Assembly (NCBI RefSeq): GCF_000305785.2 | Contig: NC_018868.3 | Location: 930,001-994,000 of the forward strand | From: Simiduia agarivorans SA1 = DSM 21679 | GTDB taxonomy: Bacteria; Pseudomonadota; Gammaproteobacteria; Pseudomonadales; Cellvibrionaceae | Length of the DNA stretch: 64,000 nucleotides | Direction: 5' to 3' | Shown: positions 21,330 through 50,963 of the stretch, piece by piece | How the letters are laid out: every line of letters starts with the position of its first letter | Numbering within the stretch: position 1 is the first letter of the stretch | The notes under the pieces: generated by a model | The model's input: the letters and a program-made list of their open reading frames with translations, nothing else | Databases searched by the model: none | What the model was told of the DNA's origin: nothing | Translations under genes and position numbers: made by a program

Positions 21330-24300
21330 CTAAACGCCTATTTCATCGGAAATCTGAACCCACTGCAGCGGCCGCATATTGACTGCGGCCATGCCTGTTT
21401 CATCCTGATCGGGTTTTCCTGGCTGGGGACGGCCAAGGGTAATAAAGGCCTTGCCTTTAATAACTATTACCTTGATAACGTCGCCGATATAAATCTTGTC
21501 AGGGTTCTTGATGCCCGGGTTCTGCTGCCACAGCTCTTTCCACCGGAATGGGTCCTTCAGAAACTTGTTGGCGATATCCCACAAAGTGTCTCCCTCAATG
21601 ACCTGGTAACTCTGCTCATAACCATCTTTTAACTCAGGTACAGCTGCCTCCTCGGGAATCAATAACAAGGTTTCTGCCGGCTGGCGCTCATCCGACTCCT
21701 CTTCTTCCTCAGTTTCCCCTGCTGCTGTCGCGTCTGCGGGTAACAGCACACCGGCCACCAACCTGAACTCCCCGCCGGCGACAGAGTCAACGCTGGCGCT
21801 GTAGGGACTGACCGCTTCAAAAATAGCCGGATCCACCTGCGAGAAATCTTCGACTGCAGTTTGTACCGCACTTTTCACCCCTTGAGCTGCCTGGGTACCG
21901 TACACGGATTCAGTGCGGTTACCGGCAAACGCTGTGCTCGCAGGAATTGAGCCGATATACAAAGGCTCGACGTAGGTCAGCGCATTAAACGATAACGCGC
22001 CCGACGCATTGATGGCCGCCGGATTCAACTCATCGCCAATTTCGAGGAAAGGTTGAGCACCGGTACCCACGGTCACGTTGGTCCCGGTCAGATTGGTACC
22101 ACCAGCGGCAAAGAACAGCGAATTTCCGTTCGCCGACGTCAATATCACGTTGCCGTTTCCGGCATTGATAGCATCAACTGTCGTGTCAGTCTGGGTGACC
22201 ACCGAGATATCCTCGTTAGCACTACTGGTATCAATACCTAACAGGCTACCGCTGAACACCAAATCTACCGGCCCGGTCGCTTGCAAGGACAGCTCGGCAA
22301 AGGCCACATTGCCGGAAGCAGATCCCAGAGAAATCATGGCATTTTCTGCATTTGCAAAGTTCAATGTCATGCCGTTCGCTGTCACACCACTACCGGCAAA
22401 GGCGCCGGCGGCCGTAGAGGACAACACTAAACTGCTGCCTTCGTCCGTCAACAACTCGAAACCCGCAAACTCATAACCGCCAAGCTGACTGATACCGTCA
22501 CTTAATTGCCAGTTCAGTCCACCAGCCGAAATCAGCTCGTCCTGCCCGGCAGAGCCTTCCAGTGAAAGCGGAGCGAAGCTGTTGTTCACCACCCGAACGG
22601 CATCGTCACCTGCACCCAGATTAAGATTCGCGAGTCCTCCGGCTTCCAGCAACACTGTGTCATCTCCGGCGCCCGTCACCAAACTGGCAATACTGCCCCC
22701 TGCAAAAACAACCTGATCCCGGCCGCCGCCCAATGTCATGGACTCGACTCCGCTGAACACCAAGGTGTTCGTGCCATTGGTTACACTGGAACTAGTACCT
22801 GTCAATGACCAGTCCAGATCGCTATCGGGCCCCACTAGAGAATCTTGCCCGGAGCCACCGAGAAATGCCTGTACGCCGCTGTAGGTAATACTGCCGTAAA
22901 CCAATTGGTTAAGACTCTCGAGCCTGACCTGTGAATTCACATCCGCGCCATACAATGTCCCCGTGCCGGCGACCTGTTCAATACCGGTGAAAAGCACTGA
23001 AACACTGTCCAGCTCTACGCGCGCACTGTTGTCAGCTAACACACCATTCGACGTTACCGCACGCCAAAGACCATTAGCTGACGTTACGCTATCCACACCA
23101 TTGCCTGCCGCCACTGTTTCTACGCGGGCAAACGCAATGCCTGCGGTTTCAATTTGTCCGGCATCAGTGACGATAAAATTATTGCCTGAGGCACTACCTT
23201 GAATGCTGTTGTCACCTGCAGCGCCATCAACATGACTGACACCAGAAAACGCGACATCCATAACGCTCACTGCGTTATTCTGGTTACCGAGAAGAAAAAC
23301 ATTTGACTGGCTATTGCCTACGAGTGTCAGCGACGCGCCGGTGATACTTCTGACGCCGCTTACCAACAGATCACTGACGGAATACTCACCGCCAGTTTCC
23401 GACAAGCGAATCTGATCAGCCTGCGTCAGGCTCAGAACATCATTACTCTGAGCATTGAACACTGCTACTTGCCCGAATGACGTGCCGCCGACTACCAATG
23501 TCTGGCTGCCGCTGTCAAAAGTAAACGTCTCACTTACACTGGCATTCGCCAGTACTGTGGCATCCTGAGCAGAATATCCGGCGAGACCAGAAAAACGTAT
23601 GCCCGATGCATCGACACCATCGCTCTGGATCTGCCACTGCTGCTGGAAATCCCCTTTTACGGTCACGTCATCGGCGCCAGTGGTCACGGCAACCAAATCA
23701 GAGAAATCGAGCGCATTGATTGATACCCGGCCGCCGCTCAACACCAGGGAAGTTCCGTTTTCTTCAATCAGCAGCGATTCGGCGCCTCTGAAGGTTGCTA
23801 TGCCAGAGACGGTCAGGCCTGAAGTTGTAACGACATCTGCGCCTTGGTAAGCCCAACTGCGCGAGTCGGTTGCCTGTATTGTCTGGGCGCTCGCAAGCCC
23901 CTGCAAATGCATAACGCCACTGTATTGAATTCCGCTATGACTTATTACACCTGCTCCGGACAGGGAAAGCAGTGCGCCCTCTTCGGTTACCGACAGTGCG
24001 TCGGCATTAACGCGCTCCAGACCACCGATCAGCATCTCACCCGCGCGTACCTGTTGATTACCCTGTGCGGTTATCGTGGTAATGCCATCCAGCGAGTCGA
24101 GGTTGCCTCCAAATGCGGCTTGGGAAACACCATCAATCAATACCCCGTCGGTAAGCAGACTATTGGCACCAACATACTGAATTTGATTGCCCGCAAGGGA
24201 ACCGAGAACAGACGACGCTCCGGCCGTTTCCAACCCGGTAAACTCGATGCCGGCTACCTGTACTTTTTGCGTATCACCGGTCAATTGCAGATCAAAATTA

Positions 24301-27300
24301 CCCGCGTTGACTCGATCTTCACCACCACCCAAATCGATCGAGCTAAATCCGGATGTCTGGCTGGTAGTAATGGTCATGGCGTTGGCAGAAATGGAATGAC
24401 TGCTTTGCACAACAAGCTCATCCGCCAACCCGGAAGCAGCGAAAACGGATTCAGACAGGGTTACAGCCTCAACACCATTGAAACTGATTCCCTGAGTACT
24501 GAAACCTGATGGAGTACCATCCAGCGACAATGTAGTAGTGGATACTTGATCAGACACACCATTGGCGGACCACTGGTTCACACCGGTAAAGTGCATGTCG
24601 AACACATCAACAGTGCCAACAGCCGTTACTTGATAGTGACCACTAGTCTGGCTCTCCACTGTTGCCACGTGAACGTTGGTTGCGCCGGTCACTGAAAAAT
24701 TTTCATGACTAAGTGCACCAGCCTGACCATTTACGCTGGCACTGCCGCCCAGCAGAGATAACAGATTTGCATTACCATTCAATGCGAGCACGATACTGTT
24801 CGCGCTGGAATCAATTAGCGTGGTTCCAATCGATACCTGACCTTGCTGATCGACTGTGAGCAATGCAACCGCCTGGTCCACATCAAAGGCGTTTACATTC
24901 CCCGCAATTTGCGCGAGACCTGATAATGCAATGCCAGCGCCTGCAGATGCAGTAAAATTATCCGAATCGTGAACGGTGAGTTGAGTCGGACCTGAAAATT
25001 CAACACGATCATCCTGCCCAGTGCCGACAATTGAAGCCAACCCACTGAAATGTACTGCGTTGATACTGACACTTCCGTCCGCAGACACAGATACATTATT
25101 GGCCGCACTGGTATCCAGTAGAAGATTGCCGGAACTTGCTGTTTCGATGTTTGAGATTCTGATGCCGCTGGCATAAACCTCGGAACCGTCCAGTTGGAAT
25201 TCGGTTGAGGTATCGGCGTTAAAATGATCCGTTGCACCTGCACCATCCACAATCCATGTTGACATATCGCCAGCGAGCTGGACCGTCATGCCATTGGCAG
25301 AAAGGCTATTAGCAGACAACGCAAATGTATCTGAACCGGCGCTCCCCTGAAGCCGATTGGTAAGACCGATAATGAGTTCCACGTTTTCGAACAACAAACC
25401 ATTATTGATGGCACTGTTCTCACCTGCGAGCAGCCAGTCCTGACCTGCAATGCCTGTCACGCTATCGTAACCGTCACCACCGTCAAAGCCGGAATAACCG
25501 TCAAAATCGATACCGTTCACTCTTATGGTGTCATGATCCATGACAAAAAGTACGTCATCTTCTCCACTGCCAACAACGGCAGCATTCTCTATTACCTCAA
25601 CATTGGAAATCAGCATGCCATCGGTAAATACTGTACCCGACTGACTCTGCAACTCGACATCTTTACCTGCACGGGCGATTAAAGTATCAACTCCGTCGGC
25701 CATGTTAACGGAGGTCAAACCGCCGTTTTCAGCAGTCACTGTCATCCCTGCTACGATTACAGAGCCTGCTGCTGCAATTTCCATCACATCAGCATTTTGG
25801 GTTAATACAAGGCTTTTGCTGACGCCTGATAACGACTCGACCGCGTTGAAGGTGATGCCATTGCCGATCGCGGACTGGTTGCCTACAACCTCCCAGCTAC
25901 CAAGTCCGAATACCTCATCGTTGCCATCACCGGCATTCACATCGGTAATACCGTCAAACAAAACACCATTGGCCTGAAGATAATTTTCCGATGGAATACT
26001 GAAAGTATCACCACCAGAGGAGCCGGTAAGCACTACGCTGGCAGAACTGACTGCATCCAGTCCGGTAAAGCTGATGCCGTTACTGAACGCCGCCTGATCG
26101 ACTCCGGTTAAGGTCCAGCTGCCACCATTGGCCGCCAATGTGACCGCTGCATCCGCAGTCACCGCACCGATACCGGTAAACACCAGCTCACTCGTGGTGA
26201 AGTTACCGTCCACACCACCAAGGATCGCGGTCAAGTCTGACACCGCACGTACATCCCCATTGGTGACCGTGTGCAGATCAAGGAAGTTAACGCCATCGCG
26301 TGCAACTTCGCCGCCGTTTACTGCCACCTCTGCCCCGGCGGCATTGAGTTGATCGTCGCCGCCTGACGCCGCCACGGTGGCTATACCGTTAAAGGTCATG
26401 CCATTCACTGACACACTGTTGGTGCCGGCCACTTGATAATTGTCTTGCGATGCGGAACCGGTCAGCGTGTGTGTACCCGCGGCGTAGTTTGCCGTTTCAA
26501 TGCCGACAAACTCCACAGCACCCAGGCGGGCGCCAACACTGTCACCATCACCGGTGCCCAGGGTCCAGCTTGCAGCATCCATTACCAGCACCGTATCGTT
26601 CGGACCGGCACCGGCGTTGACGCGGGTGACGGCCATAAAATCGATACCGGTGGTGGTATCTGTCAGGGTGGTCCCTGCCATCTGGAAACTGTCACTGCCC
26701 GAGGTGCCGTTGACAATACCGTTGCCGGTAGCCTCTTCGATGTTCAGGAACGAGAGACCGTTGCTGCGGGCACCGCCCGTAATCAATGTCCATTCGGCAC
26801 CGGTGCTGGTAACCGTATCATCGCCCCCGGCGGTGTTTACCTGGCTCAGGTTGGTGAACTCGAGCGCGCCGCCCGCCAAGGTCAGGCGCGTACCATCCCA
26901 GGTCAATTGCTCGGCTACATCGGAGCCCAACACACTGCCATTGCTGTACTGCACAATACCGCTGACAGCGGGGCCCCCGGTCAGGCTGACATTCTGCCCG
27001 TTGTCGAGCACAATTTCGGCACCGGACACATCCAGCACGCTGGCGGCGTTGCCGGTCAGGCTGGTAAGGGCCGAGTCGCTGTCAAAGCGGATAGCGCTCC
27101 CGGCAATATCAACCCGGTTCTGGGTGCCGTTATAGGTCAGGTCTGCCGTGGTACTGCTGAGATCCAGGGCAGTAAAATTGCCACCGGCGGTTTCCAAACC
27201 AGTGAAGGTAATGTTGCGCGTCTCCGCTTGCTGCGCTGATGCGTCGACCAGTGTCCAAACGGCGCTGCTGTTGGCCGCGTCGGCCGTGCCAACAGCGTTG

Positions 27301-30300
27301 ACACTGGCGAGCCCGTCAAAATCAATCCCGCGCACAGTGAGCAACTGATCGCCGGTCACCACATACTCTTCAGACTGACCGGCTTCGCCGGTAAGCGCTC
27401 CGACGGATGCGTCAGACACACCAGTGACCAACAAGTTGGTGACCCACAAGGTATTGTTGTTGCCGCTACCGGCAAGTGCCGCCTGAGCAGCGGACACCTG
27501 ACCGCTACTGAGGTTAACCTGCGCAAACCCGCCGGCCCGGTTAAAGCCGATCCCGTTCAAGGTGAAGCTGAGGTTATCGGTCCCGGCAATAAAACTGTCT
27601 GTAGCACTGCCGCCATTGACGTCAGTGGCAGCGGATGTGACCTGGCTGAAGCCCACAAACTCGGTCGTGGTCGCGCCGGTTAATTGCAACGCGCTGCTAC
27701 CGCTAAAACCCCAGAGGCTTGCACCGTTCGTGCTGGTAACCTGACTCCCGTTGGTCGCTGTCAGACGTTCTGCATCGACAAAGTTGATGCCGGCATAGGT
27801 GAAGTCGTCGTTAGCGTCCAACAGGATATTTTGTGCACCACTGTCAGCAACTGTGATCGCGCCACCGGTCGCAGTGGTCAGGTTAACAACCGTCAGACCG
27901 TCGGTCAGAGCCAATCCACTCAGGCTGGAGACAGACGCGCTATTGCCGGTCAGATCCAGCTGATCGCCGCCGCCCTGCAAATCCAAGGTGGTGTAACCCG
28001 CACTGTTGGCAAACGCCACGCCGTTGAGGGTGATAAGATTTTTATCAAACCCAGCAGCCAACACATCCAGGCCGGTGGTCGCGATCAGGGTCGCGTTTGC
28101 ACGATTATCTTCCACGGCCTCAATCTGATTGAACACCAGGCTGTCGTAACCGGCTGATTGATCGCCCAACGATACCCAGTTAATCGCGCCTGCAACGGGG
28201 CCAACAACCGTGTCGGTGCCGCCGCCGGCATTGATGGTGTTTACACCGGTAAATGCTATGGCATTGGCCATTATGGGGTCAGTGTTACTGGCAACACTGA
28301 AGTCATCGTCCAGCACGGAACCCGTGAGCACTGCGTTTGAGGAGGCAACCGTATCCAATCCGGTAAAGCTGATGCCGTTACTGAACGCCGCCTGATCGAC
28401 TCCGGTTAAGGTCCAGCTGCCACCATTGGCCGCCAATGTGACCGCTGCATCCGCACTCACCGCACCGATACCGGTAAACACCAGCTCACTCGTGGTGAAG
28501 TTACCGTCCACACCACCAAGGATCGCGGTCAAGTCTGACACCGCACGTACATCCCCATTGGTGACCGTGTGCAAATCAAGGAAGTTAACGCCATCGCGTG
28601 CAACTTCGCCGCCGTTTACTGCCACCTCTGCCCCGGCGGCATTGAGTTGATCGTCGCCGCCTGACGCCGCCACGGTGGCTATACCGTTAAAGGTCATGCC
28701 ATTCACTGACACACTGTTGGTGCCGGCCACTTGATAATTGTCTTGCGATGCGGAACCGGTCAGCGTGTGTGTACCCGCGGCGTAGTTTGCCGTTTCAATG
28801 CCGACAAACTCCACAGCACCCAGGCGGGCGCCAACACTGTCACCATCACCGGTGCCCAGGGTCCAGCTTGCAGCATCCATTACCAGCACCGTATCGTTCG
28901 GACCGGCACCGGCGTTGACGCGGGTGACGGCCATAAAATCGATACCGGTGGTGGTATCTGTCAGGGTGGTCCCTGCCATCTGGAAACTGTCACTGCCCGA
29001 GGTGCCGTTGACAACACCGTTGCCGGTAGCCTTTTCGATGTTCAGGAACGAGAGACCATTGCTGCGGGCACCGCCCGTAATCAATGTCCATTCGGCACCG
29101 GTGCTGGTAACCGTATCATCGCCACCGGCGGTGTTTACCTGGCTAAGATTACTGAACTGCAGCGAACCACCGGCCAGCGTCAGGGTTGTGCCGTCCCAGT
29201 TGAACTGCTCCGCCACCGAGGAACCCAACAAGCTGCCATTACTGAAAAGGCTAATCCCGGTCACTGACGGACCGCTGGCAAGCGCGACATTCTGGGCATT
29301 ATCTAATTGGATTTGTGCACCGGACACGTTCAACGAACCGGCACCATTGCCCACCAAACTGGTGAGCTGGATATTGCTGTCAAACCGGATGCTGGCACCA
29401 GCTATATCAATGCTGTGCTGGCTGCCGTTATAGGTGAGATCGGCTGTGGTTGCACTCAGATCAAGCCCTGTGAAGTTCCCGCCGGCGGTTTCCAATCCGG
29501 TAAAGGTAATCCCTTGGGTGCGGGCTTGTTGGGAAGCGGCATCCAATAAGGTCCAGTCACTGCTTGTGGTGGCGGCATCTGCACCGCCAACGGCGGTAAC
29601 ACTCGCAAGCGAGCTGAAATCAATGCCACGCGTGGTCAGTAAGCCACTGCCTGTAACACTGTAAGTTTCTGATTGCCCTGACTCACCGGCGAGTGAAGCC
29701 ACGGCAGCGGTTTCCACGCCATCAATTTCAATGCTCGCAACCAACAAACGATTGTCGGCTCCCGTGCCCGCCAGTGTGGCCTGATCAGCCACCAGGTTGC
29801 CGTTGTTCAGAATAACCTGGTCAAAACCCGCAGCGTGGCTGAAGCTAACGCCGTTCAATACAAAGCCGAGGTTATTGGCACTGGCAGTATATTGATCAGC
29901 GACTGCCCCGCCGTTTACAGAATCGGCCGCCGAGGTGACATTATTGAACCCTTCAAACACCGTTGTGATCGCGCCCACCAGCTGAAGGTCATCGCCGCCA
30001 AAACCCCAGATGCTCGATGCATTGGTACTGGTGATACTGCTGCCATTACTGGCAGCCAGGCGCTCGGCATTAACAAAAGTAATGCCGGCATAGGCAAAGT
30101 CATCGTTCAGATCCAATGTCAAACTCTGCACATTAACATCAGTCAGGGTAATGGCGCCGCCGATGGCACTGGTCAGATTGGTAATAGCCAATCCATCGGC
30201 CAGTGCCAACGCCCCTGCTTCAGAAACGCTAACCGTATTGCCTGCAAGATTCAGCTGATCACCGCCGCCGTTAAGATCGAGCGTGGCATAATCCGAGGCG

Positions 30301-33300
30301 TTTTCAAACGTCACACCATTAAGTGTAATGAGATTTTTGGTGAAACCCACCGACAATGCATCTATGCCATTGGTAGCGGTTAACGTTGCCCCCGCACGAT
30401 CATCAACCAGTGTTTCAATCTGATTAAAGACAAGGCCATCGTACCTGGCAGCCTTGTCCCCCAGTGACACCCAGTTAATGGTGCCACTGGTTGGACCAGT
30501 TACTGTGTCACTGCCGTCGCGGGTATTTACCGTTGTGACGCCGGTAAATGCGATACCGTTTGCGGTGATGGGGCCGGCAATGCTGGTAAAACTGTACGCA
30601 TCGTTGCCATCCGATCCGGACAGCACACTGCCGGAGGAATCAACATTGTCCAGATTGGTAAAACCAATACCATTACTGGAGGCCGCGCCGCTGGCGCCGG
30701 ACAAAGTCCAGCTACCTCCCGTGACTGAGAGGTTGACCGCCGTCTCGGCGCTTACTGCGGTGATCCCGGTGAACACCAGCCCAGCCGAGGTGAAGTCGCC
30801 ATCGGCAACGCCCAAGGTCAGCGCCAAATCCGTTTGAGCATGCACAGTGGCATTCGCTATCGTCTGCAGGCCAGTGAATTCAATACCGTTTCGTTCAGCT
30901 ACAGCAACACTTACATTAACCTGTGCGCCGCCTGCACTTAACTGGTCATTGCCGTCGAGCGCCACTACCTCGCCTATGTTTTCAAAGCTCATGTCATTGG
31001 CTAACAGAGTATTGGCGCCAGTGACCTGATAATTGTCCACCGAGGCGGAACCGGTAAGCGCGTGGTTGCCTGCGCTGTAGCTGGCGGTATCAATACCGAC
31101 AAACTCCACGCCACTTAATGTCGCGCCAACAGCAGCACCGTCGCTGGTGCCAAGCGTCCAGGTGCTCGTGTCGTTTACCACCAGGGTATCGCCAATCGCA
31201 GCGCCGGCATCGACCCGACTAACGGATAGGTATTCAATACCTGTGGAAGTATCGGTCAACGTTGAGCCTGAAAATTCAAGGCTATCAGCACCCACCTTGC
31301 CAAAAACAACGCCTGCTGACGCAACGGAATTAACGCCTAAAACGGTGACAGAAGCCCCACTCACACTCGCTATGGCGCCGGCGTCCGTTAACTGCCAAGA
31401 GTCACCACCGATAATAGTATCCCCACCGGACACACCATCGATTTCTTCCAAATCATCCAGATTGAAATCGATCGAATTAAATTGATTACTCGCGTCAGTG
31501 GACAAGTTAATACTTTCGAACTCAGAGCTCAATCGCAAACGCCGGAACCCACTTGCGGCCGCCACCCGCTCAAATAAAATACCACCAGTACTGTCATTTG
31601 GCAGCGCGGTCACTCTTACCTGTGTAGAGGCCAGCTGGCTACCAGCATCATTGGCCGTTGTAATCCACACAGCCTCCTCGCCCTGCAGATCCACTACCTG
31701 ATACGTCAGGTTTGCCCCGCTGACTGTTGCGACGCTCGAAAAGCCTTCAAAACTCTGACCTGAGGCACTCAGCGCTAGTGCGGTGCCGTTTTGCTGAACC
31801 GTGATATCGGTTACACCCGCCAGATCAAGTGCTACATCCGATGCACTCGTAAAAAACCCTTCAGCATCGGCAATTCGCACGATAGATGTAGAACTAACTT
31901 GCAAACGCAAACGGCCATTGCCATTGTTTCGATTCCATACACCACCGGGCAAACTGATCTGACTAATATCAAACGTATCAAGCCCGTCACCGCCATCCAC
32001 ATCCAATGAAAATTGATTACCGGTGTTATAGTAAAGCTCTCCCAATATGTTGGTACTTCCATTTCCGGAAAGACCCACATTAATTTCTATTTCATCTGCC
32101 GAGATTATTCCAAAATTGGTAAAACTACCTTGGGCGCTGGCAACAAAAATTCCGTCATTTAAGTCAATCTGCATGCCCGCAGCAATATCAATATTGGCAT
32201 TAGAAATTAATTCAAGAGTAGGATTTTCGCCGGCAATAGCTTGAATATTGCCACCAATATAAATCCCCGCTTGCTGCCCGACTGGTGTGCCGGTTGCCTC
32301 TAACGTTAAGGTGTGGCTACTGGCAATGGAAATATCTGTCAACAAACGAATACCACTCGCCGTATTATCCTGACCGTTCAGGCTACCATCTGAGGCCAGT
32401 GCATTGCTGGAAATGGTGACGGAACCATCCGCAAGCTCATTCTGCAGAGTCCCTACATAAAGGTAATTTGCCTCAATTTTGTTCTCGTTTCCGATCTCAA
32501 GATATCCCGGATTTATCGTCCACTCTCCAGCATTTCCATTCGCACCACCTTCGGTCGCTACCACGCCACCAAGTAACACAGATTGCTGACCAGACGTCTC
32601 TACCTCACCGCCGTTACCATCTTCGCCAGCTCCGGTTGCCCTCAGCTCTCCCAAAAATTCCAGGTTTTCGTTCGCCCAAGCAACAACCAACCCACCGTCA
32701 CCGGAGCCAGTTGCTGATGCCGACACCACAGCACCGGATTCAATTACAGTGGTATTGGCCGAAATTTCGCCTTGAGATGAATCTACTGAGCCTCGGTAAC
32801 CACCACCCAACAGGACCGCACCTCCCGCATCAGTACCATCCGCACTGATAGTTGAGGCAGATCGTAAAGTCACCTCCGAACCCAATACTTTTACCGAACC
32901 ACCGCTCGAGCCTTCTGCCTTAATATTACCGATTACTTCAGAGCTATCAGACTGAATGAATACCTCACCGCCAACACCGGCAGTACCGCTCGCGTCCAGC
33001 AAACCCGACACGCTGACCGCTCCACCTGTGGCGGATAACCGGATCACACCGCCAGTGGTATTAATGCCCTTGGCTACAACTGTTCCAGTATTATTCACCG
33101 CAGCATCAAATAAATCTTTGGCTACAGACGCGTCCAGCAACACCCGCTGGCCTTCAATACTCCCAGCATTAAGCACCGCCGAATCAACACCGCTTTCCTT
33201 TTCCAACACTGCACGGGAAATCTGAACACCCAGCATATTATCAGCGTCGAAGCTAATCACTGCCTCATCTGCAGCAGAAAGCGAAACCACATCCGCTTTT

Positions 33301-33866
33301 ATCAATCCATGGTTTTCGACGCGCTTACCAACCAGCGCGGCGCTCGACGCGTTAATGGTGCCGTAGTTAATGACGCTCCCCCCACTATCGGCGAGCCCCA
33401 TTAATTTATACTCGCCATTCATAAAGTCAGCAGGATTGATATCCAAGCCGGAAACCGCGATACCGCCAACATCTACAGACGCTGTTTCGGTAAAGAGCAC
33501 GCCATTGGGATTTACCAGTAACACGTGACCATTGGATTCAATAGAACCATGAATAGTTGAGGCGTTATCGTCAAGAATCCGGTTTAGCACCAGCGCTGAA
33601 GCAGAAGGCTGCACGTACAATACTTTTTCATCTGCGGCCAGATTGAACGTATCCCAGTTTATCGCCATCAGATCAGACGTTTGATTAACCTGAGTAGTGC
33701 TGCCGTTCTGCGAAATATCGCCGTCGCCGCCTACAATGTTGCCACCCGTAGGCTCCGCTATAGGCAAGGATGAGTAGGTCACCAGTCCCGTGACCAATCC
33801 ACCCATCATCAAGCGGTGCAGATTAATTGCTTTCGCCAGGGCTTTTCTTACATTGAAGGCGTTCAT
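21330..33866 (-). CDS. Giant two-partner-secretion exoprotein (TpsA, filamentous haemagglutinin type) with C-terminal LysM domain
   Basis: The 4,178-residue protein begins with an extended signal region (NVRKALAKAINLHRLMMGGLVTGLV). A TPS secretion domain follows: GGNIVGGDGDISQNG, INWDTFNLAADEKV, LVLNRILDDNASTIHG and the NPNG motif in LLVNPNGVLF. The body is repetitive beta-helix-like sequence with many short NGI.F.GL/ GGDD-type units, arranged in 766-residue super-repeats over 26.0-31.3 kb. An acidic linker (ETEEEEESDERQ) leads to a LysM domain at about 4087-4136 (EGDTLWDIANKFLKDP, then IYIGDVIKV). It should be secreted to the cell surface by the TpsB encoded upstream. A LysM at the end could bind peptidoglycan and retain the C-terminus. 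The ATG at 33866 follows AAGGA. The family role is adhesion or contact; specificity is unknown. Confidence 0.9.
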   Translation of the reverse strand: MNAFNVRKALAKAINLHRLMMGGLVTGLVTYSSLPIAEPTGGNIVGGDGDISQNGSTTQVNQTSDLMAINWDTFNLAADEKVLYVQPSASALVLNRILDDNASTIHGSIESNGHVLLVNPNGVLFTETASVDVGGIAVSGLDINPADFMNGEYKLMGLADSGGSVINYGTINASSAALVGKRVENHGLIKADVVSLSAADEAVISFDADNMLGVQISRAVLEKESGVDSAVLNAGSIEGQRVLLDASVAKDLFDAAVNNTGTVVAKGINTTGGVIRLSATGGAVSVSGLLDASGTAGVGGEVFIQSDSSEVIGNIKAEGSSGGSVKVLGSEVTLRSASTISADGTDAGGAVLLGGGYRGSVDSSQGEISANTTVIESGAVVSASATGSGDGGLVVAWANENLEFLGELRATGAGEDGNGGEVETSGQQSVLLGGVVATEGGANGNAGEWTINPGYLEIGNENKIEANYLYVGTLQNELADGSVTISSNALASDGSLNGQDNTASGIRLLTDISIASSHTLTLEATGTPVGQQAGIYIGGNIQAIAGENPTLELISNANIDIAAGMQIDLNDGIFVASAQGSFTNFGIISADEIEINVGLSGNGSTNILGELYYNTGNQFSLDVDGGDGLDTFDISQISLPGGVWNRNNGNGRLRLQVSSTSIVRIADAEGFFTSASDVALDLAGVTDITVQQNGTALALSASGQSFEGFSSVATVSGANLTYQVVDLQGEEAVWITTANDAGSQLASTQVRVTALPNDSTGGILFERVAAASGFRRLRLSSEFESINLSTDASNQFNSIDFNLDDLEEIDGVSGGDTIIGGDSWQLTDAGAIASVSGASVTVLGVNSVASAGVVFGKVGADSLEFSGSTLTDTSTGIEYLSVSRVDAGAAIGDTLVVNDTSTWTLGTSDGAAVGATLSGVEFVGIDTASYSAGNHALTGSASVDNYQVTGANTLLANDMSFENIGEVVALDGNDQLSAGGAQVNVSVAVAERNGIEFTGLQTIANATVHAQTDLALTLGVADGDFTSAGLVFTGITAVSAETAVNLSVTGGSWTLSGASGAASSNGIGFTNLDNVDSSGSVLSGSDGNDAYSFTSIAGPITANGIAFTGVTTVNTRDGSDTVTGPTSGTINWVSLGDKAARYDGLVFNQIETLVDDRAGATLTATNGIDALSVGFTKNLITLNGVTFENASDYATLDLNGGGDQLNLAGNTVSVSEAGALALADGLAITNLTSAIGGAITLTDVNVQSLTLDLNDDFAYAGITFVNAERLAASNGSSITSTNASSIWGFGGDDLQLVGAITTVFEGFNNVTSAADSVNGGAVADQYTASANNLGFVLNGVSFSHAAGFDQVILNNGNLVADQATLAGTGADNRLLVASIEIDGVETAAVASLAGESGQSETYSVTGSGLLTTRGIDFSSLASVTAVGGADAATTSSDWTLLDAASQQARTQGITFTGLETAGGNFTGLDLSATTADLTYNGSQHSIDIAGASIRFDSNIQLTSLVGNGAGSLNVSGAQIQLDNAQNVALASGPSVTGISLFSNGSLLGSSVAEQFNWDGTTLTLAGGSLQFSNLSQVNTAGGDDTVTSTGAEWTLITGGARSNGLSFLNIEKATGNGVVNGTSGSDSFQMAGTTLTDTTTGIDFMAVTRVNAGAGPNDTVLVMDAASWTLGTGDGDSVGARLGAVEFVGIETANYAAGTHTLTGSASQDNYQVAGTNSVSVNGMTFNGIATVAASGGDDQLNAAGAEVAVNGGEVARDGVNFLDLHTVTNGDVRAVSDLTAILGGVDGNFTTSELVFTGIGAVSADAAVTLAANGGSWTLTGVDQAAFSNGISFTGLDTVASSNAVLTGSVLDDDFSVASNTDPIMANAIAFTGVNTINAGGGTDTVVGPVAGAINWVSLGDQSAGYDSLVFNQIEAVEDNRANATLIATTGLDVLAAGFDKNLITLNGVAFANSAGYTTLDLQGGGDQLDLTGNSASVSSLSGLALTDGLTVVNLTTATGGAITVADSGAQNILLDANDDFTYAGINFVDAERLTATNGSQVTSTNGASLWGFSGSSALQLTGATTTEFVGFSQVTSAATDVNGGSATDSFIAGTDNLSFTLNGIGFNRAGGFAQVNLSSGQVSAAQAALAGSGNNNTLWVTNLLVTGVSDASVGALTGEAGQSEEYVVTGDQLLTVRGIDFDGLASVNAVGTADAANSSAVWTLVDASAQQAETRNITFTGLETAGGNFTALDLSSTTADLTYNGTQNRVDIAGSAIRFDSDSALTSLTGNAASVLDVSGAEIVLDNGQNVSLTGGPAVSGIVQYSNGSVLGSDVAEQLTWDGTRLTLAGGALEFTNLSQVNTAGGDDTVTSTGAEWTLITGGARSNGLSFLNIEEATGNGIVNGTSGSDSFQMAGTTLTDTTTGIDFMAVTRVNAGAGPNDTVLVMDAASWTLGTGDGDSVGARLGAVEFVGIETANYAAGTHTLTGSASQDNYQVAGTNSVSVNGMTFNGIATVAASGGDDQLNAAGAEVAVNGGEVARDGVNFLDLHTVTNGDVRAVSDLTAILGGVDGNFTTSELVFTGIGAVTADAAVTLAANGGSWTLTGVDQAAFSNGISFTGLDAVSSASVVLTGSSGGDTFSIPSENYLQANGVLFDGITDVNAGDGNDEVFGLGSWEVVGNQSAIGNGITFNAVESLSGVSKSLVLTQNADVMEIAAAGSVIVAGMTVTAENGGLTSVNMADGVDTLIARAGKDVELQSQSGTVFTDGMLISNVEVIENAAVVGSGEDDVLFVMDHDTIRVNGIDFDGYSGFDGGDGYDSVTGIAGQDWLLAGENSAINNGLLFENVELIIGLTNRLQGSAGSDTFALSANSLSANGMTVQLAGDMSTWIVDGAGATDHFNADTSTEFQLDGSEVYASGIRISNIETASSGNLLLDTSAANNVSVSADGSVSINAVHFSGLASIVGTGQDDRVEFSGPTQLTVHDSDNFTASAGAGIALSGLAQIAGNVNAFDVDQAVALLTVDQQGQVSIGTTLIDSSANSIVLALNGNANLLSLLGGSASVNGQAGALSHENFSVTGATNVHVATVESQTSGHYQVTAVGTVDVFDMHFTGVNQWSANGVSDQVSTTTLSLDGTPSGFSTQGISFNGVEAVTLSESVFAASGLADELVVQSSHSISANAMTITTSQTSGFSSIDLGGGEDRVNAGNFDLQLTGDTQKVQVAGIEFTGLETAGASSVLGSLAGNQIQYVGANSLLTDGVLIDGVSQAAFGGNLDSLDGITTITAQGNQQVRAGEMLIGGLERVNADALSVTEEGALLSLSGAGVISHSGIQYSGVMHLQGLASAQTIQATDSRSWAYQGADVVTTSGLTVSGIATFRGAESLLIEENGTSLVLSGGRVSINALDFSDLVAVTTGADDVTVKGDFQQQWQIQSDGVDASGIRFSGLAGYSAQDATVLANASVSETFTFDSGSQTLVVGGTSFGQVAVFNAQSNDVLSLTQADQIRLSETGGEYSVSDLLVSGVRSITGASLTLVGNSQSNVFLLGNQNNAVSVMDVAFSGVSHVDGAAGDNSIQGSASGNNFIVTDAGQIETAGIAFARVETVAAGNGVDSVTSANGLWRAVTSNGVLADNSARVELDSVSVLFTGIEQVAGTGTLYGADVNSQVRLESLNQLVYGSITYSGVQAFLGGSGQDSLVGPDSDLDWSLTGTSSSVTNGTNTLVFSGVESMTLGGGRDQVVFAGGSIASLVTGAGDDTVLLEAGGLANLNLGAGDDAVRVVNNSFAPLSLEGSAGQDELISAGGLNWQLSDGISQLGGYEFAGFELLTDEGSSLVLSSTAAGAFAGSGVTANGMTLNFANAENAMISLGSASGNVAFAELSLQATGPVDLVFSGSLLGIDTSSANEDISVVTQTDTTVDAINAGNGNVILTSANGNSLFFAAGGTNLTGTNVTVGTGAQPFLEIGDELNPAAINASGALSFNALTYVEPLYIGSIPASTAFAGNRTESVYGTQAAQGVKSAVQTAVEDFSQVDPAIFEAVSPYSASVDSVAGGEFRLVAGVLLPADATAAGETEEEEESDERQPAETLLLIPEEAAVPELKDGYEQSYQVIEGDTLWDIANKFLKDPFRWKELWQQNPGIKNPDKIYIGDVIKVIVIKGKAFITLGRPQPGKPDQDETGMAAVNMRPLQWVQISDEIGV
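26061..26846 (-). repeat. Near-identical 786-bp repeat copy inside the exoprotein gene (second copy at 28359)
   Basis: Aligned base by base with 28359-29144 at an offset of exactly 2,298 bp, this segment shows only six differences. It is the partial third unit of the 766-residue super-repeat. Flanking sequence on both sides diverges quickly. Confidence 0.9.
28359..29144 (-). repeat. Near-identical 786-bp repeat copy inside the exoprotein gene (partner at 26061)
   Basis: This is the same segment in the second super-repeat. The next copy, again offset by 2,298 bp (about 30657-31442), is clearly homologous but diverged. The recent duplication or gene conversion is therefore confined to this stretch. 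Confidence 0.9.
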
Positions 33867-33925
33867 TATCCCGTATTCCTTAACAGATAAAGGGTTTAGT
33901 TCTGTTGTCATCCGTTTCTTGCGGG

Positions 33926-35914
33926 TTAGCGCAAAAAGAGAGTAAAGTCCGCAAATACCTGCGCGGAGTCGGCATCGGCACCAATCAATTCATTGGAGGA
34001 CACAGCTTCCAATGGCTGCGCCACCGACACCTGGGCCGCAAAGGACTCGTTCCAGCTGAATTTAAAAATCAGACCAGCGCTGGCAAGGCGAGCCCAGGAA
34101 TCAGATCCATCGGGCTCAAAATTTACTACCGAACCATAACCTGCATCAGCTAAAAATCCCCACTGAAACACGTCATTCAGTCTGTTACCGCCACCCACAT
34201 TGGGATTGAGCGATTCGGGGAGGTTGAAAAACCATTCAGCACTGACCAACCCGGCTTGATCAGCGGAATAGTCGCGCACGCTATACCCGCGCACACCGTT
34301 AGCACCACCCAAGGACAGCTGTTCAAATGCAGGCAGCAAACGATCTGCATATTGCCAACGGGACTTAAACACTAAACGCGACTCGGTATCTGTGAATGGC
34401 AGCGGGACAAAGAACAAACTATTGGTATCCAGAGCAAACTTATAAAAATCTTCGCCGCGGCCTTCCACCACTGGATTCTGATGCAGACCATACTGAAGTT
34501 TGGCATTGGCAATATTCAGCATCCGGACACTGGAGCCAAGGCTATCCACATACAGGCCAAGCTCTCCACCGCGCACATGATCTCCACCGCGATAGGTTTC
34601 CACTACTGAGTCCATGTCGGTTTCTTTATCAGTGAGGCTTAAACCACTGCTGAGGTTGAAATCCCGCGAACGATGCCATTTATGATCAATACTGGCAGCA
34701 AAGGTCTTGTTGACACCTTCCAATTCCAGGCGATTGATTATGTCGTCATCATCTCCGGTAAGCTTAAATACATTGTAATCGGCTGACAGTTCAACCCGTG
34801 TCCGGGGAGATAGCAGTGGGAAACTATAGCGAACCTGACCCAGGTTGGAATTACCTGGTGTATGGGACTTCAAAAAGCCGAGTGTCAAGGCGTCGCCATA
34901 GCCCAATGGGTTCATCCAATCAAACAAAGCGTAGGTGCGCTTGTCGCCGGTAAACGTTGAGCCGTGATTGTCCGCGCGCAATGCAAACTTCCAAGCCTGC
35001 TCGTCACGCACTTTTAAATTCAGGGCGGTTTCGCCGGGGTTGTCACCCGGGCTGAAATAGCCGGTAACATTCAAACCCGGCAAATCATTGAGGAGATACA
35101 TCCCCTCCTCTACATCAGCATGATTGACCAGTTCACCCAAATGCTCTTCAAAGGGCGAGGCCAGCGTCGACTCCCGGTAACGTTCGTTATCATGGGCCAC
35201 CACCTTGCCCAATCGCCCTTCCTGCACAGTCAATGACACCACGCCATCAACCACGTCCTGAGCTGGAATCTGGACCTGTGCCAGAAACAAACCCTGACGG
35301 CGATAGTAACCGGTAATTTCTGCGGCGATTTCTTCCAAATCACCGTAGCTCATTCCCCGCTCCGCATTTTGCAGCTTGATAATATTAATGAGACGCTGCA
35401 GGTTTTTTGGTGTTACCCGATCGGGCATGTCCTGCGCCCCGATTTCTGAAAGGTAGCCTGCAATTTCCTCTAGGTTTTCACGCGTAAAACCATGCGCCAC
35501 GACCTGATCTTCCTTCATGTACTTTACGCGAAGCTGTTCAGCCATCTGGCGTACTTTATCGGCGGTAATACCGTGATCAGGAAATTCTTCCAAGCGGACA
35601 AAATCGAACCGTTTGACTGCAATCCGCGGCCCTTCATCCCTCAATCGCTGCAGCGGAATTTCTGTATCGAGTTGTGGCGCTGCTGTATCAATGGTTCTCA
35701 GCAAAAACTCTTTGGTAATATCCTGACCTGCATCTGGCGTCACATCGGATTCAAATGCTGAGCGAACAGAACTACGAAAACTAGACTCGGCCTCAGTTGT
35801 TTGAGCTTCTACACCCATGGCAGCAATTGTATTTGCCAACAAAACAGCGCAAGCCAATCGTTTGGAATCTTTTATCACACCTGATTTACACATTAGATTT
35901 TCCACTGAATACAT
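33926..35914 (-). CDS. TpsB outer-membrane transporter (FhaC/ShlB type)
   Basis: The 662-residue partner transporter has a signal-like N-terminus (LACAVLLANTIAAMGVEAQT) and an unusually long N-terminal region of about 80 residues. Two POTRA domains follow (around 95-300; IAGYLSEIGA, ITGYYRRQGLFLAQVQIPAQDV..GVVSLTVQEGRLG, LNDLPGLNVTGYFSPGDNPGET). A 16-strand barrel carries the conserved VRGY motif (GGANGVRGYSVRD) and ends in FADFTLFLR. It recognises the TPS domain of the exoprotein encoded next on the same strand and exports it. It starts 6 bases after the kinase stop, with a second possible ATG at 35893, so co-transcription with the kinase is very likely. Confidence 0.92.
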   Translation of the reverse strand: MYSVENLMCKSGVIKDSKRLACAVLLANTIAAMGVEAQTTEAESSFRSSVRSAFESDVTPDAGQDITKEFLLRTIDTAAPQLDTEIPLQRLRDEGPRIAVKRFDFVRLEEFPDHGITADKVRQMAEQLRVKYMKEDQVVAHGFTRENLEEIAGYLSEIGAQDMPDRVTPKNLQRLINIIKLQNAERGMSYGDLEEIAAEITGYYRRQGLFLAQVQIPAQDVVDGVVSLTVQEGRLGKVVAHDNERYRESTLASPFEEHLGELVNHADVEEGMYLLNDLPGLNVTGYFSPGDNPGETALNLKVRDEQAWKFALRADNHGSTFTGDKRTYALFDWMNPLGYGDALTLGFLKSHTPGNSNLGQVRYSFPLLSPRTRVELSADYNVFKLTGDDDDIINRLELEGVNKTFAASIDHKWHRSRDFNLSSGLSLTDKETDMDSVVETYRGGDHVRGGELGLYVDSLGSSVRMLNIANAKLQYGLHQNPVVEGRGEDFYKFALDTNSLFFVPLPFTDTESRLVFKSRWQYADRLLPAFEQLSLGGANGVRGYSVRDYSADQAGLVSAEWFFNLPESLNPNVGGGNRLNDVFQWGFLADAGYGSVVNFEPDGSDSWARLASAGLIFKFSWNESFAAQVSVAQPLEAVSSNELIGADADSAQVFADFTLFLR

Positions 35915-35920
35915 CCCTGT

Positions 35921-38482
35921 TTAACGACGGGCTTCACGTACCAACCGAAACCCCACCAAGGGATCGGCACCACCGTCGTAGTTGACTTTTGTAGTTGCCA
36001 GACAATTGCTCATGGCATCCAAATGACTCCCCCCCACTGCCAGCAGGCCAACAGTGTCTTTTACCATTTCCGAGGCATTGCCAACGCCATTGACCAGACC
36101 GTATTTATTAGCCTTTCCTGATGTAGCACTGACTAACTCACCGCCTTTTTCGATACCACCATATTTAAGGTAACAATTTCGGTCTGGCGCCTCGCGCTCG
36201 CCACCAGCACTCACTGCGGAGAACCATTCCGGATAGGTGGGCAGCCGATATTGATACCCCGTTTGATTACTCAACCAATCGAGATATTGATAAACTTGTG
36301 CTCGGGAAACATTGGTCACAGGAAACCGCGCCTCCGCGCGCGTCTGACAGGCACCGCTAATATCACACCAAGCCTTGAGGTCACCCCAGCTTACCTCGTA
36401 TTTTGATATAGCTATGGATTGTGCGCCCTCGCCTTTTACCACCACCAGAGAAGGTCCAATATCACCATTTTTCATGGGGTCGGCACAGACAAAGCGACTG
36501 CCGCGCCCTCCGCTCCCTGGTTCAAGATGTCCGCAATAGTCAATGGTAAGCCCGGCAATCATGGCTTGATCCGGTAAAAGCGTTTGGGCCTGCTCCAACA
36601 AAGGTGTTGCGCGACGCGGATTTTCCCGGGCTAACCCAGAGATACACCGGTGTAACTCGCTGGCTACCACAGGCCTGATCTGGTTTGATTTCTTTGCGTC
36701 CAACGCTTTCATGGTAGCGAGAGAACCGGCGATGTCCCGATCGATACTCATACTGAAACCGCAACGCAATTGACGCTCCAGGTCAGATACAACAGCGTCA
36801 ATTTTTTTTGCGTGCTCACGCGCTTTTTGCTGGGCTTCTGCTCTGGCGGCCGCGCGCTGCTCCGCCTCAATCCTCGCTTCTTCGGCACGCTGCTCTGCGG
36901 CCAGGCGTGCCACCAGTTCAGTGCGACCCAACTCTACTTCCGCTTTCAGCGCCAGATAATCCTTATCCTCACCGCTACCCCAGGCTTCGGCACGCACAAT
37001 GGTTCGTTCGCCATTCTCGAGTTCACCTCCAGCTACATATTCCTTTGCAGCCTCAAGAAATTTTTGCGCCATACCGTCGCGAATTTCTTGCTCGAACACC
37101 GGATCGTTCGTCAGCTCACCGTACTCTGCCAGTTCCTTCCGAACGTCACGCTCCCAATCAACTGACAGGCTACCCAATGCCAACAAGCGCCTGAGGCTTT
37201 CTTGCTTATCGGCTATTCGACTGACCAGCAGCTCCTGCTGCAATTGCTGCTCCAACTCTGCCTTGTAGGCCGCATCGACAGCTGCCTGCTCCCTGTACTG
37301 CACAACAAACGCCGCGCCCAATGCGGAAGCGCTCAATACCGACACGGTCAATGCCAGCCATAGCGCCCGACTGCGACCAAAAAACTGACGCATAAACTCG
37401 GCAGCATCAGGGGTCCGCTGTATCCGCGAAAACTGCAATGCCGACTCCAACGCTCGCCACTGCCGCCGGGTTAACCCTCTGATACGCTTGGGTCTTAATT
37501 TCTGTGCCTGCGCTTTATCCGCCGGTAATTTGTTAAATGGATGGCGACCCGCAAATAACTCATACGCTACGCACCCCAGCGCATAGACATCGTCGCTTTG
37601 GCAAGGATCCTCACCTTTAAGCATTTCCAGACTGGCATACGCAGGGGTCAACGCACCCAAAGACCCGGCATCGAACAGGGTTTTTTCACCAACCTGACCT
37701 TGCATACCGCCGGCCACAGCCCGCGCGATACCGAAATCAAACACCTTGGCGCCTTTGGTCTTGGTGACAAAAATATTGCCGGGCTTGAAATCGGAGTGCA
37801 CTATGCGCTGAGAATGCGCATGTATCAGCGCTGATGTTATATCCCTGAGGATCTTTTCCGCCTGCTCTTTATCCAGCCCTTTACCGGCGAGCTGGCGGAT
37901 AAGTTTATCCAGCGGCGTACCATCGAGGTATTCCATGGTCATGAACACGATGTCACCATCGCGATCAAAATCATAGACAGTCACAATGTTCGGATGCGCC
38001 AGATTCTGGCTCTTCCTCGCCTCGCGCTGCAAAGAAATAAAAGCATCCGGATGCTGTCTGAAATCATCATTCAACAGCTTTACTGCAAGATAAGGATCGC
38101 TGTCATTGGCCTCGACCTTTCTACGATCCAAAGCACGGTAAACAGCACCCATCCCGCCAGAGCCAAGCAGATTGACCAACTCAAACCGGTCTTTAATCAG
38201 GGTTTTATTTGTCGCTTGGGTACTGATGGATTGAGGTATTTCTGTTGAAACCGCCAGGGGCACCTGACCAGAAATTGCTGCACTGGCGGAAAAAACGGTT
38301 TTATCGAGATTAGTTATGGATTTGGCGACTACGTTTGGACTGCGCGACTCCTGTACTGGAACTCTGGCACCCACAAACACCGTAGCATCGTCCGCTGGAA
38401 CCTGATCAGGCTTACCACTTCTGGCTTGCCTTCTGCCGTCTGCCAGCGAAGGAACCACGCGGGTTTTATCTTCAATATCCAT
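35921..38482 (-). CDS. ppkA: PpkA-like transmembrane Ser/Thr kinase with C-terminal formylglycine-generating-enzyme-like domain
   Basis: The 853-residue protein has a disordered N-terminus and a Hanks-type kinase at about 100-365. The glycine loop is GSGGMG, AVKLL has the catalytic lysine, the catalytic loop reads HSDFKPGN, and DFG is intact. The usual HRD arginine is serine, making it a non-RD kinase. A transmembrane helix (about 373-395) is followed by a long charged coiled-coil region rich in Glu, Ala and Arg. An FGE-sulfatase/SUMF1-like domain occupies the last ~180 residues (ISKYEVSWGDLKAWC, RLPTYPEWFSAV, GLVNGVGNASEMV, VGFRLVRE) and would be periplasmic. In T6SS clusters such kinases phosphorylate Fha. 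It diverges from tagH and is followed immediately by tpsB. The start is uncertain between ATG 38482 and GTG 38494. Confidence 0.87.
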   Translation of the reverse strand: MDIEDKTRVVPSLADGRRQARSGKPDQVPADDATVFVGARVPVQESRSPNVVAKSITNLDKTVFSASAAISGQVPLAVSTEIPQSISTQATNKTLIKDRFELVNLLGSGGMGAVYRALDRRKVEANDSDPYLAVKLLNDDFRQHPDAFISLQREARKSQNLAHPNIVTVYDFDRDGDIVFMTMEYLDGTPLDKLIRQLAGKGLDKEQAEKILRDITSALIHAHSQRIVHSDFKPGNIFVTKTKGAKVFDFGIARAVAGGMQGQVGEKTLFDAGSLGALTPAYASLEMLKGEDPCQSDDVYALGCVAYELFAGRHPFNKLPADKAQAQKLRPKRIRGLTRRQWRALESALQFSRIQRTPDAAEFMRQFFGRSRALWLALTVSVLSASALGAAFVVQYREQAAVDAAYKAELEQQLQQELLVSRIADKQESLRRLLALGSLSVDWERDVRKELAEYGELTNDPVFEQEIRDGMAQKFLEAAKEYVAGGELENGERTIVRAEAWGSGEDKDYLALKAEVELGRTELVARLAAEQRAEEARIEAEQRAAARAEAQQKAREHAKKIDAVVSDLERQLRCGFSMSIDRDIAGSLATMKALDAKKSNQIRPVVASELHRCISGLARENPRRATPLLEQAQTLLPDQAMIAGLTIDYCGHLEPGSGGRGSRFVCADPMKNGDIGPSLVVVKGEGAQSIAISKYEVSWGDLKAWCDISGACQTRAEARFPVTNVSRAQVYQYLDWLSNQTGYQYRLPTYPEWFSAVSAGGEREAPDRNCYLKYGGIEKGGELVSATSGKANKYGLVNGVGNASEMVKDTVGLLAVGGSHLDAMSNCLATTKVNYDGGADPLVGFRLVREARR

Positions 38483-38863
38483 ATTACGACCCACTTATTC
38501 GTAGTAAAAGCCTTCCATGCTTTTATTCTGTTGAGGCAATTTGCTGTTGCAATGATAAACAGTTTGCCACCGCATATTTCATTGGTACGAGTGTACCTTG
38601 CATGCGTAAACCGGGTGACCGGCAGGATTCTACTTGAATCGCCAAACGCCTACCAAGAAAGACTGATTTTTAATTACTCAATAAATACGCATGTACCAAG
38701 TTGAGTTTTTTTTGATCTGCTTCTACCACGATTGATTAACGCTTTCGGGAAAACAACTACTAAAGCACGAACCCCTGCGTTAGAATCCGACGCCTCTCAG
38801 CTGGTAAAACTGGCTGCTCGTTGCAGACAATACTGCTCGACAAAAATGTGACACGGTAGACAA
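38483..38863. promoter_or_regulatory. Intergenic region between the kinase-TPS operon and the T6SS operon
   Basis: These 381 bases separate the two divergent operons and must hold both promoters. A TAGAAT at 38781-38786 could be a plus-strand -10, but its -35 is poor. No strong palindrome, terminator or small gene was found. Confidence 0.4.
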
Positions 38864-40457: not shown

Positions 40458-40961
40458 ATGAAAAATATCGCTCGCCTACTTTTATCAGCAGGCATCTCGT
40501 TAATAACAGTTTTGATCGTGTCGGGCTGTCAAACCACCCGCGAAACGCTCAACTTGGACACTAACGCAGAGGTCCACTTATACGCAGGTGAGCATATAAA
40601 CCCAGACCAGGACAGCCGTGCCTCACCACTGGTTATCCGACTTTTCAAACTGGCGGATGATCGTCAATTTGGCCGGGAAGATTTTTTAAACCTTTATGAA
40701 AACGCGGAAAATCGATTAGGTAAGGATCTACTGGATACGATTGTGCTTAAGGAATTGGCGCCTGGTGAGCACCGCGTTGAAAACCTGTCTCTGACCCCTG
40801 AAGTGGCCTACATTGGCGTTCTCGCTGAGTTCGTCCAATACCAGGACGCCAGCGCAGTAACTATATTCCCGATCACGGCACATACTAGCAACGAAATTCA
40901 TCTGCAAATTGAAAAACTCGCGCTGAAAGCTGGTAAACCCATCAAAAAATCTCGTCGATAA
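40458..40961 (+). CDS. tssJ: TssJ, T6SS outer-membrane lipoprotein
   Basis: The 167-residue lipoprotein has lipobox VSGC with acylated Cys24. It has the TssJ/VasD beta-sandwich pattern: SPLVIRLFKLADDRQFGREDFLNLY, then LKELAPGEHR and the late YIGVLAEFVQYQDA. It anchors the membrane complex to the outer membrane by contacting the periplasmic end of TssM. Placement between tagH and tssK is a common order. Confidence 0.92.
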   Translation: MKNIARLLLSAGISLITVLIVSGCQTTRETLNLDTNAEVHLYAGEHINPDQDSRASPLVIRLFKLADDRQFGREDFLNLYENAENRLGKDLLDTIVLKELAPGEHRVENLSLTPEVAYIGVLAEFVQYQDASAVTIFPITAHTSNEIHLQIEKLALKAGKPIKKSRR

Positions 40962-40994
40962 CACCCTGCCACAACCGGTAAATAAGGAAATTAT

Positions 40995-42329: not shown

Positions 42330-42332
42330 GTC

Positions 42333-43154: not shown

Positions 43155-43180
43155 AAATTCTGGGCACAAGGGAGATTGGC

Positions 43181-48843: not shown

Positions 48844-48891
48844 CCTGAATAACGTTTAACGCTCTCTATCTTCAGGAAAGGAGATCCAAGT

Positions 48892-49410: not shown

Positions 49411-49412
49411 GA

Positions 49413-50900: not shown

Positions 50901-50908
50901 AGCATTCA

Positions 50909-50930: not shown

Positions 50931-50963
50931 TTGCTTCACCACCCAGTTCCCAGGATTGGAACC

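Follow-up and report, generated by a model that had tools for sequence, protein, structure and literature searches.

Two-partner secretion (TPS) systems of the FHA/HMW type pair an exoprotein bearing a TPS domain with a transporter that consists of POTRA domains and a ShlB barrel. How a T6SS-bearing cell senses its neighbour through the outer membrane is a question that is settled in few species. In the available parts of the corresponding reports, the known inputs of PpkA kinases, namely TssW, RtkS and TagQRST, belong to the cell envelope, and their genes adjoin ppkA or lie close to it (PMC12607579, PMC6082577, PMC6657622, PMC10482370). One of them, TssW of Acidovorax citrulli, resides in the outer membrane, and its gene lies between ppkA and fha (PMC12607579). 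As for surface proteins linked to a T6SS, the putative lipoprotein TasL is needed for killing in hydrogel and not on surfaces, and sheath assembly was still seen in that study (PMC9040878).

The locus studied here lies in a window of 64,000 nucleotides (the whole stretch of DNA that was analysed) from Simiduia agarivorans, whose genome is a single contig of 4.3 Mb. It holds a PpkA-type kinase, both proteins of a TPS system and a T6SS operon. A giant surface protein that is genetically tied to a PpkA-type kinase makes the sensing question testable in marine bacteria that are not pathogens.

The kinase, tpsB and tpsA

The kinase gene (35921..38482, minus strand, stop codon at 35921-35923) encodes a PpkA-type membrane Ser/Thr kinase with Pfam matches to Pkinase (1.1e-38) and FGE-sulfatase (1.2e-8). 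It is followed on the same strand by tpsB (33926..35914), coding for the outer-membrane transporter TpsB, and by tpsA (21330..33911), coding for the exoprotein TpsA. A sequence-only reading of the window had placed the tpsB start 6 bases from the kinase stop and tpsA downstream of tpsB, as is indeed the case: the tpsB ATG is at 35914, and 14 bases separate the end of tpsB at 33926 from the first tpsA ATG at 33911. The 4,178 residues which it gave for TpsA apply to translation from the second ATG (33866), but the longer frame from 33911 counts 4,193. Judging from the short gaps, the three genes are likely to form a single transcript. A consensus scan of positions 33000-39400 is uninformative on this point, since the numbers of sites are at chance level (4 promoter-like sites vs 6.5 expected in shuffles, 9 terminator-like sites vs 6.3); the sites include a promoter-like one inside tpsB (minus strand, 34086-34059) and a terminator-like one near its end (minus strand, 33967-33948). 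Further downstream, the gene after tpsA (20409-21290) belongs to no Pfam or NCBIfam family and by eye resembles a solute-binding protein, and a tryptophan halogenase adjoins a TonB-dependent receptor at 15938-20236.

On the other side of the kinase, whose ATG is at 38482, an intergenic region of 381 bases (38483..38863, without strand) leads to the ATG of tagH/fha at 38864 on the opposite strand, so that the divergence and distance reported earlier stand. TagH/Fha (38864..40438, plus strand) carries an FHA domain and T6SS_FHA_C and is the presumed substrate of the kinase. It heads the T6SS operon TssJ-K-L-M-TagF-TssA-B-C1-C2-E-F-G-ClpV (40458..58543, plus strand), whose TagF was matched as TagF_N in the family search of the window; DUF6931, VgrG and Hcp follow on the minus strand (59814..62938). 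The operon contains two tandem TssC-like (VipB) genes (49413-52475), an arrangement that relatives show as well. A 287-aa ORF of the minus strand (58629-59492) belongs to no Pfam or NCBIfam family, and distant relatives of it (31% and 21% identity) adjoin T6SS genes in two other loci (L050, L061).

The AlphaFold2 model of the full-length kinase (mean pLDDT 76, pTM 0.40) comprises the kinase domain (residues 101-336), a helix at about 372-397 which is presumed to be the transmembrane segment of the predicted topology, a helical region and a C-terminal FGE-like domain. The latter (residues 640-853; 35924..36565, minus strand), which is presumably periplasmic, was also modelled alone (pLDDT 83.5, pTM 0.84). 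Foldseek assigns it the FGE fold (PvdO 3.5e-9, FGE structures about 1e-6); its other matches are related folds, including a Treponema variable protein. In a 19-row alignment of diverse kinases, eight cysteines after the helix are invariant, and in a 19-row alignment of the FGE-like domain six are. A comparison with what we take to be the positions of the catalytic cysteine pair of FGE found, by eye, the pattern GGS..D...C with one of the two expected cysteines, four PDB profile alignments being indecisive. As the fold is present and one expected catalytic cysteine is missing by eye, we do not claim that the domain is an FGE enzyme. With a Ser/Thr kinase domain followed by a predicted transmembrane segment and a periplasmic part, and encoded together with a T6SS and an Fha (FHA plus T6SS_FHA_C), the protein corresponds to a PpkA. 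A gene for the cognate phosphatase PppA is absent from the window; all five PP2C_2 matches lie outside it, elsewhere in the same genome.

Both partners of a TPS system are present, TpsB with POTRA_2 and ShlB and TpsA with a TPS secretion domain at residues 84-157 (33441..33662, minus strand). This domain is the filamentous-haemagglutinin N-terminal domain TIGR01901 (E 1.9e-18), a Pfam scan giving no TPS-domain match. It is on this domain that TpsA may be labelled an adhesin; bearing it, TpsA is probably no large outer-membrane lipoprotein of the TasL type. Near the C-terminus, the conserved element DPAIFEAVSPY (residues 4027-4037; 21801..21833, minus strand) precedes a LysM domain (residues 4102-4148; 21468..21608, minus strand; Pfam LysM 3.2e-10). 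A reading of TpsA as a CDI (CdiBA) toxin was discarded, given that Pfam finds LysM only and no toxin family at the C-terminus, and that the gene in the place of an immunity gene is the one without a family at 20409-21290. So was a LysM anchor as the explanation of the whole system: of 10 further TpsA C-termini, Pfam finds LysM in 2, which come from the genus of the window, and it is kept as a lineage feature only. By eye, LysM also follows the DPAIF element in L187 and L193.

The strict motif of the C-terminal element, DP[AG][IVL]F..[VLI], occurs in the last 500 residues of 17 of 1476 ORFs (>=200 aa), all of them TpsA proteins or a TpsA fragment (L115) encoded near such a kinase or in its T6SS island; L193 and L207 hold further strict-motif TpsA, and the version seen in L075 and L077 begins with NP. 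Of 16 stretches with a generic TpsB, 7 contain TpsA-like ORFs recognisable by a loose NPNG pattern, and none of these 8 ORFs has the element. The strict motif is also absent from the linked TpsA that make up the D type (L064, L066, L067, L155, L194, L196, L198), in which a looser IF..I..F-like element is seen by eye. As for TpsB, the second TpsB of the same genome and other generic ones are about 24-33% identical to it. The region before POTRA_2 is mostly uncovered by generic matches, most of which begin at about residue 145-190, and the same is true of some kinase-linked ones (G118, G222, G324, G459); the link between coverage of the N-terminus by TpsB rows and kinase-positive genomes (32/35 vs 21/58) cannot be separated from the effect of overall similarity and counts for little. 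Split frames were met twice, in the TpsB of a congener (G128, L049:13910-15890) and in the TpsA of G071 (L085:3754-13640), each in two frames through decay or assembly error.

Conservation of the kinase-TpsB-TpsA order

The sequence-only reading had treated the three-gene order as something to be looked for beyond this genome and its absence there as a point of refutation; the order does recur, widely and among deeply diverged lineages. Among 144 genomes of the window's family (Cellvibrionaceae, taken broadly; NCBI has a separate family, Microbulbiferaceae, for Microbulbifer), the kinase was detected in 101, TpsB in 95 and TssK in 92. The tabulation retained 89 kinase rows from 88 of the 101 kinase-positive genomes (13 with a match to the kinase domain only, and all secondary matches but one, were left out) and 90 of the 92 TssK genomes, two weak ones being dropped. 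TpsB matches were taken down to about 5e-39 only, so generic TpsB went uncounted. Within these limits, TpsB lies directly downstream (<=2.4 kb, same strand) in 50 of the 89 rows, an arrangement that random placement of TpsB would give in about 0.03%. In the other rows it is 2.4-50 kb away (17), further on the contig (4) or not on the contig (18). TssK is within 35 kb of the kinase in 75 of the 89.

A set of named loci, the best 80 of at least 546 relatives, includes 77 with an intact kinase (L159, L163 and L164 have no intact 700-aa ORF). TpsB comes directly after 28 of the 77, 27 found by script plus L156, in which TpsB overlaps the kinase end; ExbB comes next in 40, something else in 8 and the contig end in 1. 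The TpsB-next group includes Microbulbifer, Aestuariicella, Endozoicomonas, Parendozoicomonas, Sessilibacter, Marinibactrum, a genome of the BD1-7 clade and an Oleispira MAG. A TpsA-like frame stands behind TpsB in 25 of the 28; among the loci read gene by gene, none stands there in L139, L154, L156 and L203. Behind PppA-kinase-TpsB, an ORF of 101-115 aa takes the place of TpsA in L202 (12668-13015), L203 (12445-12759) and L156 (14414-14719), and its start resembles a signal peptide by eye.

The order extends beyond the family. An order-wide sample of 390 genomes gave 74 kinase matches, of which 22, spread over 8 families, have a TpsB match on the same strand no more than 3.6 kb downstream. 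All 74 kinase rows were entered, TpsB rows only from genomes of interest, and the 12 pairs outside the window's family were inspected gene by gene; some of the named loci and sampled genomes are identical (L149=G119, L154=G285=L202, L105=G176, L113=G212, L104=G163). The pair order holds down to about 33% kinase identity, and in L066, L149 and L154 the kinase frame shares 4 bases with that of TpsB. An adjacent TpsB is missing beside the Thalassolituus-type kinases and that of G005.

The two proteins have also diverged together. Kinase and TpsB distances are strongly correlated over the 33 pairs whose TpsB frame exceeds 500 aa (Mantel r = 0.95), and remain so when Microbulbifer and the window genus are removed (r = 0.86, n = 18); in both cases 0 of 2000 permutations reach the value. 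On a tree of 89 kinases (that of the window, 77 from named loci and 11 from fetched family loci), the TpsB-next state changes 3 times vs 28.2 in shuffles. The tree is a quick one with 12 open forks, so that gains cannot be counted with certainty or distinguished from losses, and its labels were set by hand for L156 (TPS), L059 (other) and L074, L076 and L078 (ExbB). A functional link between the kinase and the TPS pair is well supported by the shared gene order.

The T6SS and the changing FHA neighbour

The surroundings of the kinase follow four layouts. In layout A, that of the window, kinase-TpsB-TpsA diverges from Fha-TssJ-TssK. In layout B, that of Microbulbifer, the triplet closes the T6SS island after Hcp and VgrG, and its distance from TssK is about 22-32 kb when both are on one contig; the exceptions are G097, whose TpsB and kinase are 15 kb apart, and G104, in which the pair is present and TssK is far off on the same contig. 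Layout C, that of the sister clade, reads TssM-TagF-PppA-kinase-ExbB-ExbD-ExbD-TonB, the place behind TagF-PppA being the position expected of PpkA. In the family, 15 rows of this layout have TpsB at a distance of 3.5-47 kb, in some cases on the other strand; most of the stretches read show TpsA in front of TpsB, and Hcp and VgrG follow in L073 and L077. Layout D is the triplet without a T6SS nearby. Since ExbB-ExbD-ExbD-TonB directly follows 40 of the 77 intact kinases of the best 80 loci, the FGE-kinase does not require an adjacent TPS. The Exb/TonB genes of layout C (e.g. L076:6303-8970) represent an energy-coupled envelope link, which may be the functional counterpart of TpsB. Between TonB and TpsA, L076 also has an ORF of 411 aa and a related pair of 365 and 314 aa (11525-14690), possibly T6SS cargo with its partners.

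Other arrangements bring the TPS genes closer to the T6SS. In L155 and L198, TssA-TssB-TssC comes immediately after kinase-TpsB-TpsA and has the same orientation, and in G441 TpsB-TpsA, preceded by a PP2C phosphatase gene, occupy the far end of the island. The adjacency in L155 and L198, together with the sister clusters that hold TpsA-TpsB inside the T6SS island, supports the view that the TPS belongs with the T6SS. The sequence-only reading had gone as far as to see adhesion and T6SS activation as one device. The kinase-TPS linkage and the islands just mentioned agree with this, but its tie to the T6SS is too narrow: no T6SS sheath gene (VipB, PF05943) was found in 13 of 23 tested genomes with an adjacent kinase-TpsB pair, a proportion that is not a rate, as the genomes were picked partly because no T6SS was seen nearby. 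VipB is missing in the five g25 genomes (four of them with Fha-kinase-TpsB-TpsA) and in L147, L154, L156, G459, G368, G442, G285, G424, G222 and G324; L154 and G285 being the same and counted once, 13 distinct genomes result. The other 10, including L105, L113, L139 and L151, have VipB somewhere. Completeness is 97-99% for g25 and 97-100% for the seven G genomes without VipB, L147 and L156 being MAGs without completeness values; in G324, one of the 13, the kinase frame is broken.

The FHA neighbour of the kinase depends on the lineage. In two of the loci without a T6SS (L064 of g25 and L194 of G459), a protein with FHA and T6SS_FHA_C is encoded before the kinase. In L147 (8327-9241) and L197 (8675-9592), whose genomes have no VipB, a fusion of adenylate/guanylate cyclase and FHA takes this place, and a PP2C gene is divergent in L197, as it is in L147 by a 32% BLAST match to a PppA reference. 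As these neighbours are either T6SS-type Fha or cyclase-FHA proteins, the FHA protein beside the kinase varies while the kinase-TPS pair stays.

Possible roles of the exoprotein and the closest described systems

Several scenarios may explain why a TPS pair accompanies the kinase. We give about even credence to one in which kinase-TpsB-TpsA is a conserved envelope-spanning signalling module, in which the surface state is read by the kinase and an FHA effector is phosphorylated. TpsB would export TpsA, which would be displayed at the surface, its C-terminal end (DPAIF..V..Y, in some lineages then LysM) staying near or in the periplasm. The state of TpsA and TpsB (binding, pulling or loss) could then be read by the periplasmic FGE-like domain, for which the sequence-only reading had also suggested a role in sensing assembly or binding of the exoprotein, upon which the kinase would phosphorylate an FHA-domain effector, in the window the Fha of the T6SS, and the weapon would be assembled once the surface protein reports a neighbour. 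In relatives without a T6SS, the same module would be connected to other FHA proteins, a nucleotide cyclase among them. TpsB-TpsA would thus probably be the input and the T6SS one of several outputs. The linkage is observed; the direction of the signal and the sensing of contact are what we infer from it, and the contact site in the periplasm, the role of FHA proteins as outputs and the phosphorylation of Fha by this kinase are likewise proposed from the sequences.

The direction could also be the reverse, the kinase and its FHA partner regulating the production or export of the exoprotein, with the T6SS co-regulated. Gene order alone cannot separate input from output, and in the 13 of 23 tested genomes where the pair persists without a sheath gene the TPS is the most obvious client. 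Nevertheless, TpsB and TpsA act outside the cytoplasm and the kinase domain and FHA proteins inside, and the envelope proteins encoded beside ppkA are inputs in the available parts of the reports on TssW and RtkS (PMC12607579, PMC6082577). The FHA partner, moreover, is exchanged while the TPS stays constant, which favours input over output and makes this reversal improbable. A little less so, though still unlikely, is a role in adhesion without signalling, in which the exoprotein keeps prey within reach of the T6SS and is placed in one operon with the kinase so that the two are expressed together. Adhesins are common among TPS exoproteins. TasL offers a precedent in Vibrio (PMC9040878). Yet the constant partner of the TPS is the kinase and not the T6SS, the pair being found without a T6SS beside Fha or cyclase-FHA genes, and the strong co-divergence of kinase and TpsB speaks against this role too. 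The least credible explanation, to which we attach very little weight, is that genes for surface proteins and for competition share an island and that their order has no functional meaning. The family rows in which TpsB is distant from the kinase (17 at 2.4-50 kb and 4 further) or has no match on the contig (18 of the 89) could be read in this way, but strand, order and short gaps are kept over 8 families, to about 33% kinase identity, and the TpsB-next state clusters on the kinase tree.

The signalling module with the TPS pair as input is thus the reading retained here, and the recurrence of the coupling in many bacteria points to the surface protein as the probable means by which the kinase senses the outside. 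A broader proposal, which we hold more tentatively than the module itself, is that FGE-kinase, TpsB and TpsA make up a general outer-membrane contact receptor kinase of Gram-negatives, with a giant exported filament as antenna and interchangeable FHA effectors. The periplasmic end of the filament and the transporter would act on the kinase, and T6SS Fha, lone Fha or cyclase-FHA would carry the output. If true, there would be a class of surface receptors that have a secretion pair in place of the ligand-binding domain. The versions without a T6SS and with cyclase-FHA neighbours would separate sensing from the firing of the weapon. No kinase-TPS module or T6SS-linked TPS is described in the titles and abstract beginnings of the literature matches listed, a search to which subscription journals are mostly external. 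As far as that search reaches, the module is a real, conserved and undescribed variant of the PpkA/Fha pathway.

Its closest described relative is the TagQRST-PpkA-PppA-Fha1 system of the P. aeruginosa H1-T6SS, where a membrane PpkA-type kinase is likewise encoded with the T6SS Fha, and the envelope inputs of that threonine phosphorylation pathway come from the same locus, as the proposed ones do here (PMC6657622, PMC10482370). Unlike that pathway, the window has a TPS transporter and exoprotein as neighbours, an FGE-like domain in the kinase itself and an island without PppA. TagR is itself presumably FGE-like. The TssW-PpkA-Fha system, like the window, has an outer-membrane neighbour, TssW interacting with the periplasmic domain of PpkA and positioning the T6SS; in the available part of its report TssW is not called a TPS protein, (PMC12607579), whereas the neighbours here are TpsB and a giant exoprotein, in a module that is also found in genomes lacking a T6SS. 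In Serratia marcescens, the linked protein RtkS binds the periplasmic domain of PpkA and stabilises the kinase, and differs from TpsB and TpsA in being a soluble periplasmic protein (PMC6082577). TasL of Vibrio fischeri is, like TpsA, a large surface protein encoded with a T6SS, and is required for contact, but it is a putative lipoprotein with fibronectin-like repeats for which the available text describes no link to a kinase (PMC9040878). With the FHA/HMW-type TPS systems, finally, the pair of the window shares the TPS domain, POTRA and the ShlB barrel, and it differs from them in being encoded with a kinase and in the C-terminal DPAIF element carried by most linked TpsA.
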